Source: Deltaproteobacteria bacterium
GTDB taxonomy: Bacteria > Desulfobacterota > BSN033 > UBA1163
DNA length: 34,784 nucleotides
Assembly (NCBI GenBank): GCA_016874935.1
Contig: VGSS01000019.1
Coordinates: forward strand, 1-34,784
Direction: 5' to 3'
Shown here: piece by piece, positions 8,143 to 34,784 of the stretch
Layout: each line of letters begins with the position of its first letter
Position numbering within the stretch: the first letter of the stretch is position 1
The notes under the pieces: generated by a model
Told to the model about the DNA's origin: nothing
Database searches by the model: none
The model's input: the letters and a program-made list of their open reading frames with translations, nothing else
Translations under genes and position numbers: made by a program

Positions 8143-8661
8143 TCAAAAATCATAAAAGAACCGATTGCGAATCCGCTCAGCCATAAACCTTGCCAGTGAT
8201 TGGATGGCCGCCGCCTTATTCGATTCGCTGACGAGAATATTGTTGGAGGTGCGATACACCCTGCTGTCGGAAAGATCCTTCTCCACCCAGAGGATCTCTC
8301 CGGTCTTCTTCCTTAAGGTCAAATCGATGACCACCGTAGTCTGGTATTCGAGGGCGATTCCGGATCGGTCATAGGAGACCGAATAGATCTGAAAGGACTT
8401 GATCACTCCCTCCAGAACCGAATCTGCCTCATTCCGTCCCGCCACCTTCACCCTCCGGTCCTGAATAAACTCTCTTAAAAAACCCTGTGTGAAAGGGACC
8501 TCAATGCCAGGCTCAAAGGTCTGGTTGACAAAGGTGGGAACGGCAAGAGAGGTAATGCCAGGAGGAAGGTGCGTCTCCTTGCCTACCATCTGGTAACCAC
8601 AACCTGTTGCCAACAAAAACACACTTTGCAACACCAATAACTTCCTAATTATACTTAACAT
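8143..8661 (-). CDS. lptE: LPS-assembly lipoprotein LptE
   Basis: LptE is the outer-membrane lipoprotein that plugs the LptD barrel and helps place LPS in the outer leaflet. The 172-aa product has a lipoprotein signal with lipobox LATGC, making Cys21 the lipidated residue, and continues GCGYQMVG, the typical LptE beginning. The body has IPTF-like family features: the segment LAVPTFVNQTFEPGIE and a C-terminal helix with IQSLARFMAERI. Its place directly downstream of leuS is the classic leuS-lptE arrangement. No strong Shine-Dalgarno is seen at the ATG. Sequence conservation in this family is low, so context contributes to the call. Confidence 0.88.
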   Translation of the reverse strand: MLSIIRKLLVLQSVFLLATGCGYQMVGKETHLPPGITSLAVPTFVNQTFEPGIEVPFTQGFLREFIQDRRVKVAGRNEADSVLEGVIKSFQIYSVSYDRSGIALEYQTTVVIDLTLRKKTGEILWVEKDLSDSRVYRTSNNILVSESNKAAAIQSLARFMAERIRNRFFYDF

Positions 8662-29432: not shown

Positions 29433-30545
29433 TTAAGAGACCTTTGAAAGGATTTGAAGAATTCTTCCGGAGGCATTCCCATCCCCGTAAGGGTTGACTG
29501 CCCGTGCCATACGATCATAGGCCTCTTGATGAGTGAGGAGCTCAAGGGCATGTTGAATAATCTCTTCCCTGGAGGTTCCAACCACTCTCGCGGTGCCCGC
29601 ATCAATTCCCTCCGTCCTTTCTGTAACGTCCCTTATAACGAGCACAGGCTTGCCGAGAGAGGGGGCTTCTTCCTGAACACCGCCTGAATCCGTCAGGATG
29701 AGGTAACTCTGATTCATCAACCACACAAAAGAGGGATAGTCCAGGGGCTCGATCAGGTGAATGTTGTAAAGTCCTCTCAAAATTTTTAGAACGGGTCTCC
29801 TAACATTCGGGTTCAGATGGACCGGATAAACAACCTCCACTTGATTCGTTTCGGCAATCGCTTTAATGGCCCGGCAGATGTTCTCAAAAGGTTTTCCGAA
29901 ACTCTCCCGCCTGTGGCCTGTAACCAGGATGATCTTTTTATTAAAATCGATGGAATGAAAGGTTTTGAAATCCTCCGCATTTTTATTTAACACTTTGGTT
30001 AAACAGAGGAAAAGGGCATCGATGCTTGTATTTCCTACAACGAAAATCTTCTCTTCCGGCACCCCTTCCCTTAAAAGATTTTCCTTCGCTTTAAGGGTGG
30101 GAGCAAAATGGAGATCGGATAAATGGGTGGTCAGCACACGGTTCATCTCTTCAGGGAAAGGGGCATCCTTGTTAAAACTCCGGAGGCCGGCTTCGATATG
30201 GGCCACCTTGACCCGTTCGTAAAAAGCAGCCAGAGCGCCTACAAACGTGGTGGTCGTGTCTCCCTGAACGAGGAGCCAGTCAGGTCTGTAATCGGAAATC
30301 ACCTTTTTAATGCCTTCTAAAGCTGTTAGGGTGATGTCGAACAGGTTCTGATCAGGTTTCATGATATTCAGATCAAAATCAGGCTTGATCTCGAAAAAAC
30401 GAAGCACCTGATCGAGCATCTCCCTGTGCTGTGCTGTTACACAGACCTTTATATCAAATTCTCCGGAGGCCGTCAGGAACTCCCTTATTAAAGGGGCCAT
30501 CTTGATCGCCTCGGGCCGTGTCCCAAAAAGAAAAAGAATTTTCAT
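29433..30545 (-). CDS. wecB: UDP-N-acetylglucosamine 2-epimerase (non-hydrolysing)
   Basis: The enzyme interconverts UDP-GlcNAc and UDP-ManNAc for surface glycans. The product of about 370 aa begins MKILFLFGTRPEAIKMAPLI, the WecB signature, and contains HIEAGLRSF, NTSIDALF, VTGHRRESFGKPFENI and the donor site TDSGGVQEEAPSLGKPVL, followed by TERTEGIDAGT. The ATG at 30545 overlaps the stop of a transposase stub as TGATG; the open frame goes 13 codons further up into that stub but the conserved start is at 30545. It is the first glycan gene of the leftward operon. Confidence 0.95.
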   Translation of the reverse strand: MKILFLFGTRPEAIKMAPLIREFLTASGEFDIKVCVTAQHREMLDQVLRFFEIKPDFDLNIMKPDQNLFDITLTALEGIKKVISDYRPDWLLVQGDTTTTFVGALAAFYERVKVAHIEAGLRSFNKDAPFPEEMNRVLTTHLSDLHFAPTLKAKENLLREGVPEEKIFVVGNTSIDALFLCLTKVLNKNAEDFKTFHSIDFNKKIILVTGHRRESFGKPFENICRAIKAIAETNQVEVVYPVHLNPNVRRPVLKILRGLYNIHLIEPLDYPSFVWLMNQSYLILTDSGGVQEEAPSLGKPVLVIRDVTERTEGIDAGTARVVGTSREEIIQHALELLTHQEAYDRMARAVNPYGDGNASGRILQILSKVS

Positions 30546-30745
30546 CAAACCAGAAGAAGATGATAGTGATTTTCCATCAGACAATAAACGTGGATGACCG
30601 CTCCATAGCGATGGTGGGCTGATTCAAGATAAGAAAGAAATTTCTCCCTATCCCTCGTGTTCCGAAAAACCACCTTTCTCTCGTTCCCGCGGGATGTCAC
30701 ATGGTAAAATGCCCCCGGAAACTCAACCCTTAGCGGCCTTGCCAA
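30545..30745 (-). pseudogene. RAYT (REP-associated Y1 transposase) N-terminal stub
   Basis: The 66-codon frame begins MARPLRVEFPGAFYHVTSRG and ends at HVYCLMENHYHLLLV, right after the HUH motif (His60-Tyr61-His62). Full RAYT proteins have more than 100 further residues, including the catalytic tyrosine, which is missing, so the stub cannot transpose. The TTG start at 30745 with GGGGAG upstream is intact. The stop TGA overlaps the wecB ATG, which places the gene front end, promoter and leader before the glycan operon. Confidence 0.85.
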
Positions 30746-31057
30746 GTCAGGCTCCCCTATACTCGTTTTTCACCGATTTATCATACAACCCAAATAATGT
30801 CAATTGTTGAGACCTGACCCTTTTTATTTCTATTCGAGCTGTTTCAGGTGATAGCATCTGTTTTCAATGCAACAACGGGGTAAAGAAAAATCTGTGGAAT
30901 CATTTTTTGTAATCCCTGCCTGCGCCTGCCTGCGGTAGACAGGGCAGGCAGGGGTGTAATCAGAGAGCGAAAAACAGTTTTTTCAGCGCTCTCCAGAACC
31001 TCTTTATGCAAGAGGAAAGAATGTTCTGAAAGAAAGGGATTCCACTTGGGTTTCTCT
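30746..31057. other. Gap upstream of the RAYT stub, with a GC-rich hairpin
   Basis: The stretch holds the putative promoter of the stub (30775-30803), the motif GAGACCTGACCC near 30809, and a GC-rich palindrome CCCTGCCT (30914-30921) to AGGCAGGG (30946-30953) that repeats CCTGCCTGCG in its left arm. A similar CCTGCGGCAGGC is found in the argD-argG gap at about 12713. The last 60 bases before the M64 stop show no gene. No RNA gene was recognised. Confidence 0.5.
30775..30803 (-). promoter_or_regulatory. Possible promoter of the RAYT stub and wecB operon
   Basis: On the minus strand TTGACA lies at 30803-30798 and, after a 17-bp spacer, TAAATC at 30780-30775. The -35 is perfect but the -10 matches only half. 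It is about 30 bp before the TTG start of the stub and is the only promoter-like site seen ahead of the glycan operon. Confidence 0.35.
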
Positions 31058-32830
31058 CTACTCCATTCCCAGAAAGGCCCTCGAAAGGAAGGCGGCCATC
31101 TGGGCTCTGGTCACTAAATCATAGGGACCATACCTCCCATCGCCATATCCAGTTGTTATCGCTAATTCATAAAGTCTTTTAATATATCTGCATGACCACA
31201 TATCAGAGGTAACGTCTGTAAATAGTGACCCAGAATCACAATAATTCAGGGGAGGTTCTCCTTCTACAGCCCTGACGATAAAGGCCGCCATCTGTTCCCG
31301 AGGCACCGGATCATTGGGCCCATAGGTCCCATCCCGATACCCCGTGGTAATCTCCAACTCCTTCAGCCTCTTGATATACCTGCAGGACCACATATCAGGG
31401 GTCACATCGGGGAATGGGTCACCCGTATCACAATAGTTCAACGGTGGCTCCCCTTCGACAGCCCTGATGATAAAGGCTGCCATCTGCTCTCTATCTACAT
31501 TGTCCTCAGGACAGTATTTCCTCTCATTCTCGGGTGTATTTGGATCATCCTGAGCGCATCCTGTGGTTATCTCGGCATTGTAAATGGCAATGATATAATC
31601 GTAAGCCCAATGACCAGTTGGAACATCTGAAAATATATCAGAAATTGTAATGGTAACATCCCATTTCCAACTTTCCTTTAACACTTCCATGGGATCGTTT
31701 CGCACCATTGAGGTTGGGTCGGTGACCAAGACCTCAACAGTATGAATTCCAATAGTCAAATTGGAAGAGTTTAAAGTAAAATTATTGCCAGACCCTACGG
31801 TTTGGCCATCGACTTTCCAAGAGATGTTTTGGTTATGGGTATTGGGTTGAGGCACATTTACCCTGAAGGTTTGGTTTTGGCCTTTAGGGAGGGTTACATT
31901 AGATGCGATTGGCTCAATTGTATCAATTGGTGCCACCCAATTATAGAATCGTTTAACGAGTTGCTCGGAGTTAATCTGCTCAAATGGAAAATTTAAACTC
32001 CGCATTTTCGAATTATAAGTAGGTCTATACAACCCACTGGGACAGTATCGAGCACCTTCATAGAGCCCAGGAACGCCTGCCGTGGTACTGGTTGTTGGAA
32101 TGGGCGTAGTAAGTTCGATCCAGCCCGTAGGCGGGCCTCCTCCTACATTCCATTTGATAAGATTACGATTTGTCTCTCTGGTTACGTTTGGTCCAGAAGG
32201 TTCAAACGCATTGTTACATGGCGGCGGGCTATAATCATATTCGTCTCCCAAAAGCCCGAGGCTGTGCCCTAATTCGTGCAATATGATTTCCACCGCATCT
32301 TGGTGAATTGATGTTACTGCAACTGCACCTCCGGATCCTCCGTATTCGGTGTCGTTCACAATTACTAAAATAACATCGCGACTGTCCGCTGGAACACTAT
32401 TAGATACTACGGTATTGACCTTAGAGGTGTTAACACAGATCAGACGCTGAATCGAATAACAGTAATAGGTGGCGTCGAGAGCAGTGTCCCTATAAACCGG
32501 AGGATTTCGTTCCGGATGGTCAGCCCCGGATTCGTTGCTGGTAACGTCCACTCGGTGGACGTTAAAGAAGCGCTGGTACTCCCTGAATGGTTCCTGTGTA
32601 AAGAGGCCTTGAACGAAAGTTTCAACATCAGTGGCGTATTTGCCGAGCTCGCTGGCAGTATATCCATCTCCCAAGATGACAAGGTCCAAACGGTTAGAAG
32701 GATCACCATTGTTCCTAATGGTAGTCACCGGTTCACCCCACACCCCTGAAGAGATGCAGGTTAAGAGAAGCGTGAGGCAAGCAATCTCTATCCATTTTCT
32801 GCTATTGTCAAGAAGAGATGCGAATCTCAT
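31058..32830 (-). CDS. Secreted M64-family metallopeptidase with SLH domains
   Basis: The 590-aa protein has a signal peptide (about 1-32), an M64 (IgA-peptidase type) domain with the zinc motif HELGHSLGLLGDEY (185-198: His185, Glu186, His189; Asp196 or Glu197 possible further ligand), an Ig-like beta domain (about 300-395), and three S-layer homology domains (about 399-455, 470-520, 536-590). Each SLH unit has a cysteine pair: 425/440, 467/483 and 531/547. VILGDGYTASE (51-61) is a typical M64 feature. SLH domains usually attach proteins to the cell wall or outer surface. TTGAGGG precedes the ATG, six bases after the preceding gene's stop. Substrate unknown. Confidence 0.9.
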   Translation of the reverse strand: MRFASLLDNSRKWIEIACLTLLLTCISSGVWGEPVTTIRNNGDPSNRLDLVILGDGYTASELGKYATDVETFVQGLFTQEPFREYQRFFNVHRVDVTSNESGADHPERNPPVYRDTALDATYYCYSIQRLICVNTSKVNTVVSNSVPADSRDVILVIVNDTEYGGSGGAVAVTSIHQDAVEIILHELGHSLGLLGDEYDYSPPPCNNAFEPSGPNVTRETNRNLIKWNVGGGPPTGWIELTTPIPTTSTTAGVPGLYEGARYCPSGLYRPTYNSKMRSLNFPFEQINSEQLVKRFYNWVAPIDTIEPIASNVTLPKGQNQTFRVNVPQPNTHNQNISWKVDGQTVGSGNNFTLNSSNLTIGIHTVEVLVTDPTSMVRNDPMEVLKESWKWDVTITISDIFSDVPTGHWAYDYIIAIYNAEITTGCAQDDPNTPENERKYCPEDNVDREQMAAFIIRAVEGEPPLNYCDTGDPFPDVTPDMWSCRYIKRLKELEITTGYRDGTYGPNDPVPREQMAAFIVRAVEGEPPLNYCDSGSLFTDVTSDMWSCRYIKRLYELAITTGYGDGRYGPYDLVTRAQMAAFLSRAFLGME

Positions 32831-32836
32831 AATCCC

Positions 32837-33373
32837 TCAAGGTAGGGGAATCGTCCCAAGCAGGTCTAAGATAAATGCAGTTCCTGTCCAATGTGGGTGG
32901 TACAGTCGAAGCTCTTTTACCGACGGATCGTTTGGAAGAGTAATCAATAATTCTGTCTCCGCGTGGTGCAACACCTCGCCTCTCAGCTCCCCTGTTGGGC
33001 CAGGGAACTCAGCACGGAGAATGCGAGGATCGGGGATAATTTGCCAATCAATCTCCTTTCCCTGTGTGTCTAAGGCTATAACGACGATTTGGTCGGAAGA
33101 AAGCTCTGGATTTCTCTGGCGAGGAAGTAACCCTGGAGCTGACCGGCGTTCGAGAAGTGTGAAGATGTTAGAAGGTTGTTCTTTCCCAATTTCCACTTGA
33201 GGCGCTGGTGCCGCGATATATGCATTCCATTTGACTCTGACCTCTTGGACCGTCTGAGCCAATACCATCGTGGCCATGGCCCCAGTGGCCAAGATCACCA
33301 AAATAATTACAATCCAATATTTCCTATAATTTTTTCCTCTGTCTCGCATCCAACGGCCTGAACTTCTTAACAT
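32837..33373 (-). CDS. Exported small protein, partner of the M64 peptidase
   Basis: I recognise no named family. The 178-aa protein has a basic N-terminus, a hydrophobic segment (about 19-38) and a likely signal-peptidase site after VLA (39), then a beta-rich domain of about 138 residues ending LRLYHPHWTGTAFILDLLG. The last part resembles the N-terminal domains that many M64 proteins carry in one chain, so this may be a separated N-terminal subunit. It overlaps nothing but is six bases from the peptidase gene. The ATG at 33373 is preferred to an upstream TTG at 33400 because AAGGG lies before it and the promoter -10 covers the TTG. Confidence 0.75.
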   Translation of the reverse strand: MLRSSGRWMRDRGKNYRKYWIVIILVILATGAMATMVLAQTVQEVRVKWNAYIAAPAPQVEIGKEQPSNIFTLLERRSAPGLLPRQRNPELSSDQIVVIALDTQGKEIDWQIIPDPRILRAEFPGPTGELRGEVLHHAETELLITLPNDPSVKELRLYHPHWTGTAFILDLLGTIPLP

Positions 33374-33399
33374 CTTTTTACCCTTATTGAAATTGATCA

Positions 33400-33428
33400 A
33401 TTATAACAGTTAGAAAATTAGTTGCTCA
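33400..33428 (-). promoter_or_regulatory. Extended -10 promoter of the M64 unit
   Basis: On the minus strand TATAAT occupies 33405-33400 and is preceded by TGT, forming an extended -10. A weak -35, TGAGCA, lies 17 bp upstream at 33428-33423. The resulting start of transcription near 33393 gives a leader of about 20 nt with the AAGGG site. The left inverted repeat of the IS begins 19 bp further upstream. Confidence 0.6.
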
Positions 33429-33446
33429 CTCATTCATTTAATATTA

Positions 33447-33465
33447 CTAAAGTCTTGCACTTTTT
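33447..33465 (+). repeat. IS left inverted repeat
   Basis: The sequence CTAAAGTCTTGCACTTTTT is the reverse complement, with one mismatch, of 34766-34784. The first base after the host sequence ATATTA is taken as the boundary. Confidence 0.85.
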
Positions 33466-33548
33466 AGTACGTGCATAAAAAAGGCTGTTATTCTAAAATA
33501 GGCTAAAGAAAGCGCGACCTTACCTTAGCCCGGAAAGGAGAACAGCCA

Positions 33549-34766
33549 ATGAGAATCCAAAATGCCAGACAAGAGATTCGGAACACATTATCCTTTTTCT
33601 CCGAAAGTTTTTCAAGACCTTCTTTTAAAATCTTCTCCTGCTTTATCATCGGTTTCATCCAGTTGGGAAAAGAAGTCCACACCTCTTCCATGGTTCAGTC
33701 CCTTGCTCATTCGTTTTTACACCGATCGCTCTCGAGCTTTACTCGATTCCTGGGGCAAAACCTTTGGGCGATGGAAGAGCTCACCCAGAGCGCCCTTGAT
33801 CAATTCTTTCAGACATTGCGGATCCGTGTCCGGGATGTCGTCTTTCTTATCGTGGATGATACGCTTGTTCAAAAGACTGGCAAGAAAATCCCTGGCTGTG
33901 GTTGGCATAAGGATCATGCCCAAAACATGGCCAATGTCTTTGGCCACCAATGGGTCCTTTCGGCCTTGCTCCACAAAGATTTTCTTTTGCCCTTGTGGGC
34001 CAAACTCTATCACCCGAAAGGAGTGCGGGGGGGCGGCCCCTTTGAGACCAAAATCGCCTTGGCTCAAAAGATCATCCGAGCCCTTGTGTTGCCGATCCCT
34101 TGTAAACTCTATGTGTTGGCCGATAGCTGGTACTGGGCCAAAACCCTGGCTAATGCCTGTCGAAGGTGTGGCTACCATATGATTTCGCAACTCAAATCCA
34201 ATTCGGTCCTCTGGATTGATGAGAAAAAGACCAGCGTCAAAAGCCTGTTGAATCTGACTTCTTCCTATCGAGAGGTTTCCCTGTTCGTGTATGGAAGGAC
34301 CAAAACGCTTCGCATCGCAAGGTTCATGGGAGACATTAAGGGCCTGGGGAAAGTGGCCGTCGTGGTGGTGAAAGAGAAACGTAAGAAGCCGACTTATCTT
34401 GTCTGTACCAATATTCATTTGGCTGCCATCGATATCATCAAATACTACGCCAAACGCTGGAAGATCGAACAGATGATCAAAGATCTCAAACAACGGTTAG
34501 GGTTCGGAGATTATCAAGTTCGTGATCTTCAAGCCATCGAGCGTCATGTGGCGTTGGTCCTGTTGAGTTATTTTGTTTTAATCCTTCTCAAGATCCTTCA
34601 ATGGTTAAAGGATAAAAAGAGGTGTCTCGATCTATCCATTCGGCGACTGGCCTTCCAGGTACGCAATAACATTTTACTTGAGAATATCAGCGTCACTCTA
34701 AACGCCATGAGAATCCGATTTAAACAAAGTATTCTCGATACTTACCTTGGACAATTATGGGCTTAA
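33549..34766 (+). CDS. IS4-family transposase
   Basis: The 405-aa DDE transposase has the first aspartate in IVDDTLVQKTGKK (Asp103 or Asp104), the second at Asp192 in VLADSWYW, and the IS4 YREK signature exactly spaced as Tyr300-x2-Arg303-x3-Glu307-x6-Lys314, with Glu307 as third catalytic residue. GGAAAGGAG lies upstream of the ATG at 33549. The TAA overlaps the first base of the right inverted repeat. All key residues are present, so the element may be active. It is transcribed away from the M64 unit. Confidence 0.92.
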   Translation: MRIQNARQEIRNTLSFFSESFSRPSFKIFSCFIIGFIQLGKEVHTSSMVQSLAHSFLHRSLSSFTRFLGQNLWAMEELTQSALDQFFQTLRIRVRDVVFLIVDDTLVQKTGKKIPGCGWHKDHAQNMANVFGHQWVLSALLHKDFLLPLWAKLYHPKGVRGGGPFETKIALAQKIIRALVLPIPCKLYVLADSWYWAKTLANACRRCGYHMISQLKSNSVLWIDEKKTSVKSLLNLTSSYREVSLFVYGRTKTLRIARFMGDIKGLGKVAVVVVKEKRKKPTYLVCTNIHLAAIDIIKYYAKRWKIEQMIKDLKQRLGFGDYQVRDLQAIERHVALVLLSYFVLILLKILQWLKDKKRCLDLSIRRLAFQVRNNILLENISVTLNAMRIRFKQSILDTYLGQLWA

Positions 34767-34784
34767 AAAAATGCAAGACTTTAG
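34766..34784 (+). repeat. IS right inverted repeat, at the window edge
   Basis: The sequence ends in ATGCAAGACTTTAG and pairs with the left repeat. It ends exactly at the last base of the window. Confidence 0.85.

Follow-up and report, generated by a model that had tools for sequence, protein, structure and literature searches.

Results

Organization of the M64-SLH locus

The window, meaning the whole stretch of DNA that was analysed, is a 34,784 bp contig of a 3.05 Mb draft genome with an estimated completeness of 90.9% and contamination of 4.81%. A reading frame running from ATG through to stop encodes the 590-residue protein referred to below as the catalytic chain, and the stop codon of a second gene, encoding the partner protein, sits 6 bases before that ATG (Table 1). 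The contig also bears leuS, argG, hslU, murJ, a polysaccharide cluster with a WcaJ-type transferase, and LptE (8143-8661), which indicates LPS transport and agrees with the LPS-type envelope assumed in a preliminary description of this locus. An IS701-family element occupies positions 33449-34784. Its second inverted repeat seems to be cut off by the contig end, and a break of the assembly at this repeated element is the probable cause. A truncated piece at about 30545-30746 on the reverse strand resembles, by eye, the 315-residue transposase of another locus (L065:8786-9733), which we take to be of the REP type.

Table 1 Features of the M64-SLH locus in the 34,784 bp window. Residue numbers refer to the encoded protein.
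Feature	Position	Strand	Basis
Catalytic chain, 590 aa	31058..32830	-	Signal peptide, M64, Ig-like domain, three SLH units
Signal peptide, residues 1-32 (boundary inferred)	32735..32830	-	Hydrophobic N-terminus; helix 2-26 in model
Peptidase_M64 domain, about residues 38-300	31931..32719	-	Pfam 38-246 plus second piece; model match to 9qdi/4df9/3p1v
HELGHSLGLLGDEY, residues 185-198; zinc/catalytic H185, E186, H189, D196	32237..32278	-	Alignment of relatives; motif role from an excerpt of PMC12402451
Cys124-Cys132, predicted disulphide, catalytic domain	32435..32461	-	Pairing across 90 M64 sequences
Cys205 ... Cys263, probable disulphide at the place of the Cys3 structural zinc site in other M64	32042..32218	-	Pairing in 90 sequences
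Ig-like beta-sandwich domain, about residues 303-395	31646..31924	-	Strands pLDDT >80; conserved in M64 relatives
SLH unit 1, residues 393-462, pair A (C425, C440), DREQ motif	31445..31633	-	Unit HMM
SLH unit 2, residues 463-526, pair B (C467, C483), PREQ motif	31253..31444	-	Unit HMM
SLH unit 3, residues 527-589, pair B (C531, C547), TRAQ motif, protein's end	31061..31252	-	Unit HMM
Partner protein, 187 aa, exported beta-sandwich	32837..33400	-	Conserved upstream homologue; fold match to BF3526/BACOVA_00663 residues 28-146
IS701-family transposase next to the cassette, genomic context only	33549..34766	+	NF049999, 208.8 bits vs cut-off 170

Computation directly shows the domain content, the zinc motif, the pattern of cysteine pairing and the conservation and fold of the partner; disulphide formation, subunit association, export route, ligand and substrate are readings built on these results. 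Profile searches placed Peptidase_M64 (PF09471) at residues 38-246 of the catalytic chain with an E value of 1e-43 (150.1 bits against a gathering threshold of 26) and SLH (PF00395) with an E value of 5.9e-30. Two SLH units exceeded the gathering cut-off (47.7 and 44 bits) and unit 1 was detected only by a unit HMM, with which all three units of the preliminary description were recovered. The SLH profile of the catalytic chain also matched Sap (E 9.3e-22).

Cysteines are found at positions 18, 25, 124, 132, 205, 263, 425, 440, 467, 483, 531 and 547 of the catalytic chain. Two fall in each SLH unit, 15, 16 and 16 residues apart in units 1, 2 and 3, as first read from the sequence, and the repeated text EPPLNYC and DMWSCRYIKRL is indeed present in units 2 and 3. 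Comparison of these two units over 64 codons gave 21 identical codons, 26 synonymous and 17 replacement differences, and their common text therefore looks held by selection and not like a fresh copy.

The M64 catalytic domain

The HExxH residues H185, E186 and H189 agree in 88 of 89 relatives by alignment column, and D196 agrees in 87 of 89. The published M64 motif is HEXXHXXXGXXD (excerpt of PMC12402451); its glycine position corresponds to L193 in the catalytic chain, and this column is glycine in 30 of the 89 relatives. The model of the catalytic chain matched BF3526 (9qdi) with a Foldseek E value of 6.7e-19 and the Thomasclavelia IgA protease with 5.5e-12. Model confidence over the M64 and Ig-like parts gave block means mostly above 90, but only 47 to 65 over residues 191-270. 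The Pfam score, the intact HExxH..D residues and the fold match confirm the M64 identity proposed in the preliminary description.

M64 enzymes bear a Cys3 structural (secondary) zinc site, according to the excerpted portion of PMC12402451. The corresponding columns read S, E and N in the catalytic chain, which lacks the site. All three cysteines are likewise missing in 36 of 90 M64 sequences, so the site does not define the family. Both C124 and C132 are present in 29 of these 90 sequences, one of the two in none and neither in 61; for C205 and C263 the counts are 17, 8 and 65, so that pairing is not strict. The branch holding the catalytic chain has C124/C132, and mostly C205/C263, in place of the Cys3 site. 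Among the 90 sequences a complete C205/C263 pair and a complete Cys3 site never co-occur, suggesting replacement of one brace by the other.

A conserved upstream gene supplies a candidate N-terminal domain

The partner protein matched no Pfam family and no PDB sequence below an E value of 0.49, and a Foldseek search with it returned no significant match (best E 0.1). When its AlphaFold model (pLDDT 84.7) was compared by VIA-align, the three best matches were all to the N-terminal domain (residues 28-146) of 9qdi, 3p1v and 4df9, with Z 9.0 over 98-105 residues; the next entry, from outside M64, had Z 5.9. Homologues of the partner were found directly upstream of M64 in 13 loci (L089-L100 and L102, E <= 2.2e-11), a count in which L101 has almost no upstream DNA to contribute. 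Weaker homologues were seen in L104, L105 and L108-L110 (E 0.0004 to 0.014), and a weak match in L129 (E 0.026). In L103 the partner domain is fused to M64 on one chain (BLASTP 30% over 92 residues). The link from partner to M64 is drawn from the VIA-align second look, the gene order and this one fusion.

In BF3526 the N-terminal domain lies alongside the active site, access to which it is proposed to limit, and the catalytic domain could not be expressed in its absence (excerpt of PMC12402451). This domain is not shared by the whole M64 family, ThomasA having a different one. A beta-sandwich of this type is absent from the catalytic chain, and the gene immediately upstream codes for a domain of such a fold. 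Given the fold match, the conserved neighbourhood, the fusion and the role of the domain in BF3526, the partner is probably the N-terminal M64 domain detached as a separate chain, and the genes at 31058-32830 and 32837-33400 probably encode one two-chain peptidase; the association of the two subunits is what we infer from these data. A split M64 enzyme would allow the role of the N-terminal domain to be asked directly.

Cysteines of the SLH units occur in two separate pairs

SLH units were taken from the window, a congener (G003) and a further member of the same bacterial family (G010), and 95 of 99 units were scored by alignment columns, the other four being dropped as incomplete or containing X. 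The cysteines occupy two pairs of sites: pair A consists of the loop positions G-C ... Y-C-P, and pair B of a position before the first conserved F-x-D and one at the start of helix 1. Both cysteines, one or none were found in 71, 0 and 24 units for pair A and in 55, 1 and 39 units for pair B. In combination, 34 units carry pair A only, 18 pair B only and 37 all four cysteines, and other cysteines amount to about 2 in 5645 residues of the scored units. Fisher p values within the pairs were 5e-23 and 6e-26 and those between A and B sites 0.03 to 0.06, weak and negative; kinship inflates all of these values, and the contrast between within-pair and cross-pair comparisons serves as an internal control.

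A second sample comprised 29 loci from the phylum of a myxococcal genome, one myxococcal locus and three viral-contig loci, from which 82 units were scored and 16 of 98 dropped. Pair A was again all or none (62/0/20). Pair B was absent, no unit among the 82 containing C4, and seven units with a cysteine before the first strand but lacking C4 were counted as not pair B. Pair A is thus a variant spread widely among SLH units; pair B was confined to this bacterial family in the units scored.

Because the SLH cysteines come and go only in pairs, disulphide bridges within the units are strongly indicated by the sequence pattern, and since A and B also occur separately, each pair appears self-contained. 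The preliminary description had proposed disulphide-stiffened SLH domains. Its pairing stood, as the cysteines are paired far beyond chance in both samples; one kind of pair throughout did not, as unit 1 carries pair A and units 2 and 3 carry pair B. Neither pair is present in the one SLH unit that was scored from a cytoplasmic ABC ATPase, in G003. The SLH region of the catalytic-chain model had pLDDT mostly below 50; the prediction used an alignment from which viral SLH rows, misaligned onto the M64 domain, had been left out, and the low confidence of this part follows from the absence of alignment depth there.

On one viral contig, three SLH units with pair A lie inside a single reading frame (L221:1281-3314), the start of which presumably resembles an FAD-dependent oxidoreductase. 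A search of titles and abstracts of the open-licence literature found no report of paired-cysteine SLH units or of an M64-SLH protein. LysBT1 has an SLH domain and cysteines, and the excerpted part of PMC12285257 does not report a disulphide.

Distribution of the SLH cassette and of M64-SLH proteins

Thirty-seven SLH reading frames were obtained in all: 35 in the fetched parts of G003, one in G010 and one in the window. Among them, 24 are free of truncation at a contig end, contain at least three units and terminate no more than 3 residues after the last unit. Their N-terminal parts vary, with cohesin, kelch and CHRD domains in G003 and Calx-beta in G010 (Pfam, ten proteins). The SLH module of the catalytic chain is closest to those of the same bacterial family, with 50 of 63 residues identical in the terminal unit of G010 and 61-62% identity to G003; matches all stayed below 60% identity when plasmids were searched with the SLH module and phages with the whole protein. 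One G003 protein (L060:9186-12329, contig G003:C134) combines two stretches of cohesin with seven matches to the SLH unit, distributed over both ends, and resembles a scaffold anchor, in this case of a diderm bacterium.

The SLH profile matched 0 of 81 M64 reading frames at 80 named loci (those kept of 299 confirmed M64 relatives), and the C-termini of these frames differ by lineage. SLH was found in 3 of the 38 M64-bearing genomes searched, which belong to these 80 loci, and never in the M64 frames. In a phylum sample of 395 genomes, M64 was found in seven, and among the frames read only that of the window bears SLH; several of the other M64 tails resemble, by eye, what we take to be carboxypeptidase-regulatory domains. 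Within the bacterial family, M64 is present in 1 of 17 genomes, the window's own, and in none of the G003 sequence. The combination described beforehand as uncommon is accordingly rare in these samples. SLH itself occurs in 48 of the 395 genomes, and many frames of about 400 residues with a C-terminal SLH (L169-L195), one of them bearing TPR repeats, look like a separate kind of protein that lacks the cysteine pairs.

In a tree of 52 M64 rows, the catalytic chain fell in a 24-row group (support 100/97) with Acidobacteriota, Pseudomonadota, Planctomycetota and one Verrucomicrobiota row, away from the other Desulfobacterota M64; the exact sister was not resolved. Lateral gain of a two-gene M64 core, followed by fusion to a local SLH cassette, would be the simplest history.

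Ligand binding and export

The groove tryptophan and glycine of SLH units bind sugar and the TRAE arginine binds the pyruvate ketal, as stated in an excerpt of PMC10628300. The TRAE-like arginine is present in 95 of 95 scored units, the catalytic chain reading DREQ, PREQ and TRAQ, and the groove positions of its three units read HW, MW and MW. No match to PF04230 or TIGR03609 (CsaB-type pyruvyl transferase) was detected in the window's 90.9% complete genome, nor was a second SLH protein, and no S-layer gene was identified. With neither another SLH protein nor CsaB detected, there are three readings: the ligand locus may be missing from the draft, a different ligand may be bound, or the anchor may be out of use. 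Across the phylum sample, any association of SLH with CsaB-like genes is confounded by the many SLH genomes that carry a different, shorter SLH protein.

In G003, an ABC-2 permease, an ABC ATPase ending in SLH (PF00395) and a 1301-residue protein in which a CsaB-like domain is fused to glycosyltransferases follow one another in a row (L055:11816-18271, contig G003:C81). The ATPase is presumably of the Wzt kind, and its SLH fold may be a glycan sensor of this exporter. No SLH-bearing Wzt was reported in the titles and abstracts of the open-licence literature searched.

Type II secretion is the favoured export route, because the window's genome contains two secretin genes, the SLH gene of G010 adjoins a GspD-type secretin, and an M64 peptidase is listed among the confirmed type II substrates of Legionella (excerpt of PMC12239567).

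Discussion

The two genes are best read as encoding a two-chain secreted M64 metallopeptidase with a carbohydrate-binding cell-envelope anchor, to which we assign a probability of about 0.62. The catalytic chain would leave the cytoplasm through Sec. Oxidation in the periplasm would then join the ten cysteines outside its signal peptide into five disulphides, one per SLH unit and the other two within the catalytic domain. The partner gene (32837-33400) would supply the domain which, in the single-chain enzyme BF3526, limits chain entry beside the active site, and the functional enzyme, formed when the two chains associate, would trim or cleave peptides. The SLH trimer would hold this enzyme on envelope polysaccharide by means of the groove tryptophan and glycine and the invariant TRAE-like arginine, most likely at the outer surface, which the enzyme would reach by type II secretion. 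Anchoring to an envelope glycan is likely, and exposure of the enzyme at the surface is rather probable.

The SLH trimer might instead be a relic or stay unattached in this species, if the gene was transferred beside an IS element into a host in which the pyruvylated ligand was lost or never made, leaving the peptidase soluble in the periplasm or the medium. This history would account for the only SLH protein in a genome without detected CsaB, for eight of nine other searched genomes of the genus being without SLH, for the IS701 element adjoining the gene at the contig end, and for an M64 domain that groups with other phyla (100/97 branch) apart from other Desulfobacterota M64. It is nevertheless unlikely: none of the three arginines or the three cysteine pairs has been lost, the 26 synonymous against 17 replacement differences between units 2 and 3 indicate constraint, and csaB can be missed in a genome that is 91% complete. 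A mis-join at the contig end, by which an M64-SLH gene of another organism was binned or assembled here, is far less credible. A repeat does bound the contig at this gene, and contamination is estimated at 4.81%, but the gene shares one 34.8 kb contig with leuS, argG, hslU and murJ, its GC content is 0.466 against 0.480 for the window, and its SLH module is nearest to those of the same bacterial family (50/63 in G010, 61-62% in G003).

Two cysteines alone seldom form a metal site, which counts against the SLH cysteine pairs holding a metal or cofactor in place of disulphides. In favour of such a site, 37 of 95 units have four cysteines, and M64 enzymes do carry a Cys3 structural zinc site (PMC12402451, in its excerpted part). 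Against it stand the 34 units with pair A alone and the 18 with pair B alone, and the SLH unit scored on the cytoplasmic ATPase, which has none of the four cysteines; metal binding is most improbable. The nature of the substrate is a separate matter; the preliminary description had suggested S-layer, host or competitor proteins as possible targets. In a reading compatible with the two-chain anchored enzyme, the peptidase may trim pre-digested peptides near the cell for nutrition and leave intact proteins alone, as does its closest solved relative BF3526, whose activity is directed at the N-termini of pre-digested proteins and spares intact IgA (excerpt of PMC12402451) and which has the same N-terminal domain that the partner gene supplies. 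Against this, ThomasA, from the same family, cleaves an intact protein (same excerpt), and the substrate class is not readable from sequence; the odds on a trimming role are even.

A broader proposal is tentative and more doubtful than the two-chain anchored enzyme itself. The SLH fold of this family could have turned into a C-terminal cassette braced by disulphides, in which either of two bridges can be used, A being widespread and B found only here; it could be placed on many secreted proteins and, in species such as the window's, read a glycan that is not the classical CsaB product; the same fold on the congener's exporter ATPase could recognise the glycan before export, and the cassette could make a laterally acquired two-chain M64 enzyme envelope-bound.

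SLH anchors are mostly familiar from the walls of Gram-positive bacteria and from deep-branching diderms. The present locus matters because it places a triple-SLH anchor in a Desulfobacterota lineage of the LPS type, and because the anchor follows a cysteine rule that is clear and testable. A known enzyme family and a known anchor family are joined here in a combination that looks unusual and coherent, and two points go beyond the first reading, namely the probable split-off N-terminal domain partner and the two-class, all-or-none cysteine rule.

The Bacteroides M64 peptidases BF3526 (4df9, 9qdi) and BACOVA_00663 (3p1v) have a catalytic domain like that of the catalytic chain (E 1e-26 by sequence, 6.7e-19 by fold) and an N-terminal beta-sandwich like the partner (Z 9.0). 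They are single chains with a Cys3 zinc site and no SLH, whereas here two genes are used, the zinc-site cysteines are replaced, and Ig-like and SLH domains are added. ThomasA, the Thomasclavelia ramosa IgA protease (9qdh, 9ekk), is likewise an M64 enzyme with beta-sandwich domains behind the catalytic domain, and is secreted and predicted to be wall-anchored (excerpt of PMC12402451), but it differs in its sortase-motif anchor, its other N-terminal domain and its IgA specificity; for the catalytic chain, IgA figures only in the name of the Pfam family, from which we draw no conclusion on specificity.

The triple SLH anchors of Sap (3pyw, 6bt4, 9g93) and SpaA share the three units and the W/G/Arg groove residues (excerpt of PMC10628300); compared with these, the paired cysteines, the diderm LPS host and the genome in which csaB was not detected are features of the window's protein and genome. 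The diderm tethers OmpM and SlpA (8bym, 8bz2, 7zgx) also place SLH in an outer-membrane bacterium, and the excerpted text of PMC10628300 states that the OmpM tether is absent from Gracilicutes. By Pfam and model, the catalytic chain contains M64, Ig-like and SLH domains only and no OmpM-type beta-barrel. OmpM and SlpA are beta-barrels with an N-terminal SLH, whereas the window encodes a soluble enzyme that carries its SLH trimer at the C-terminus.
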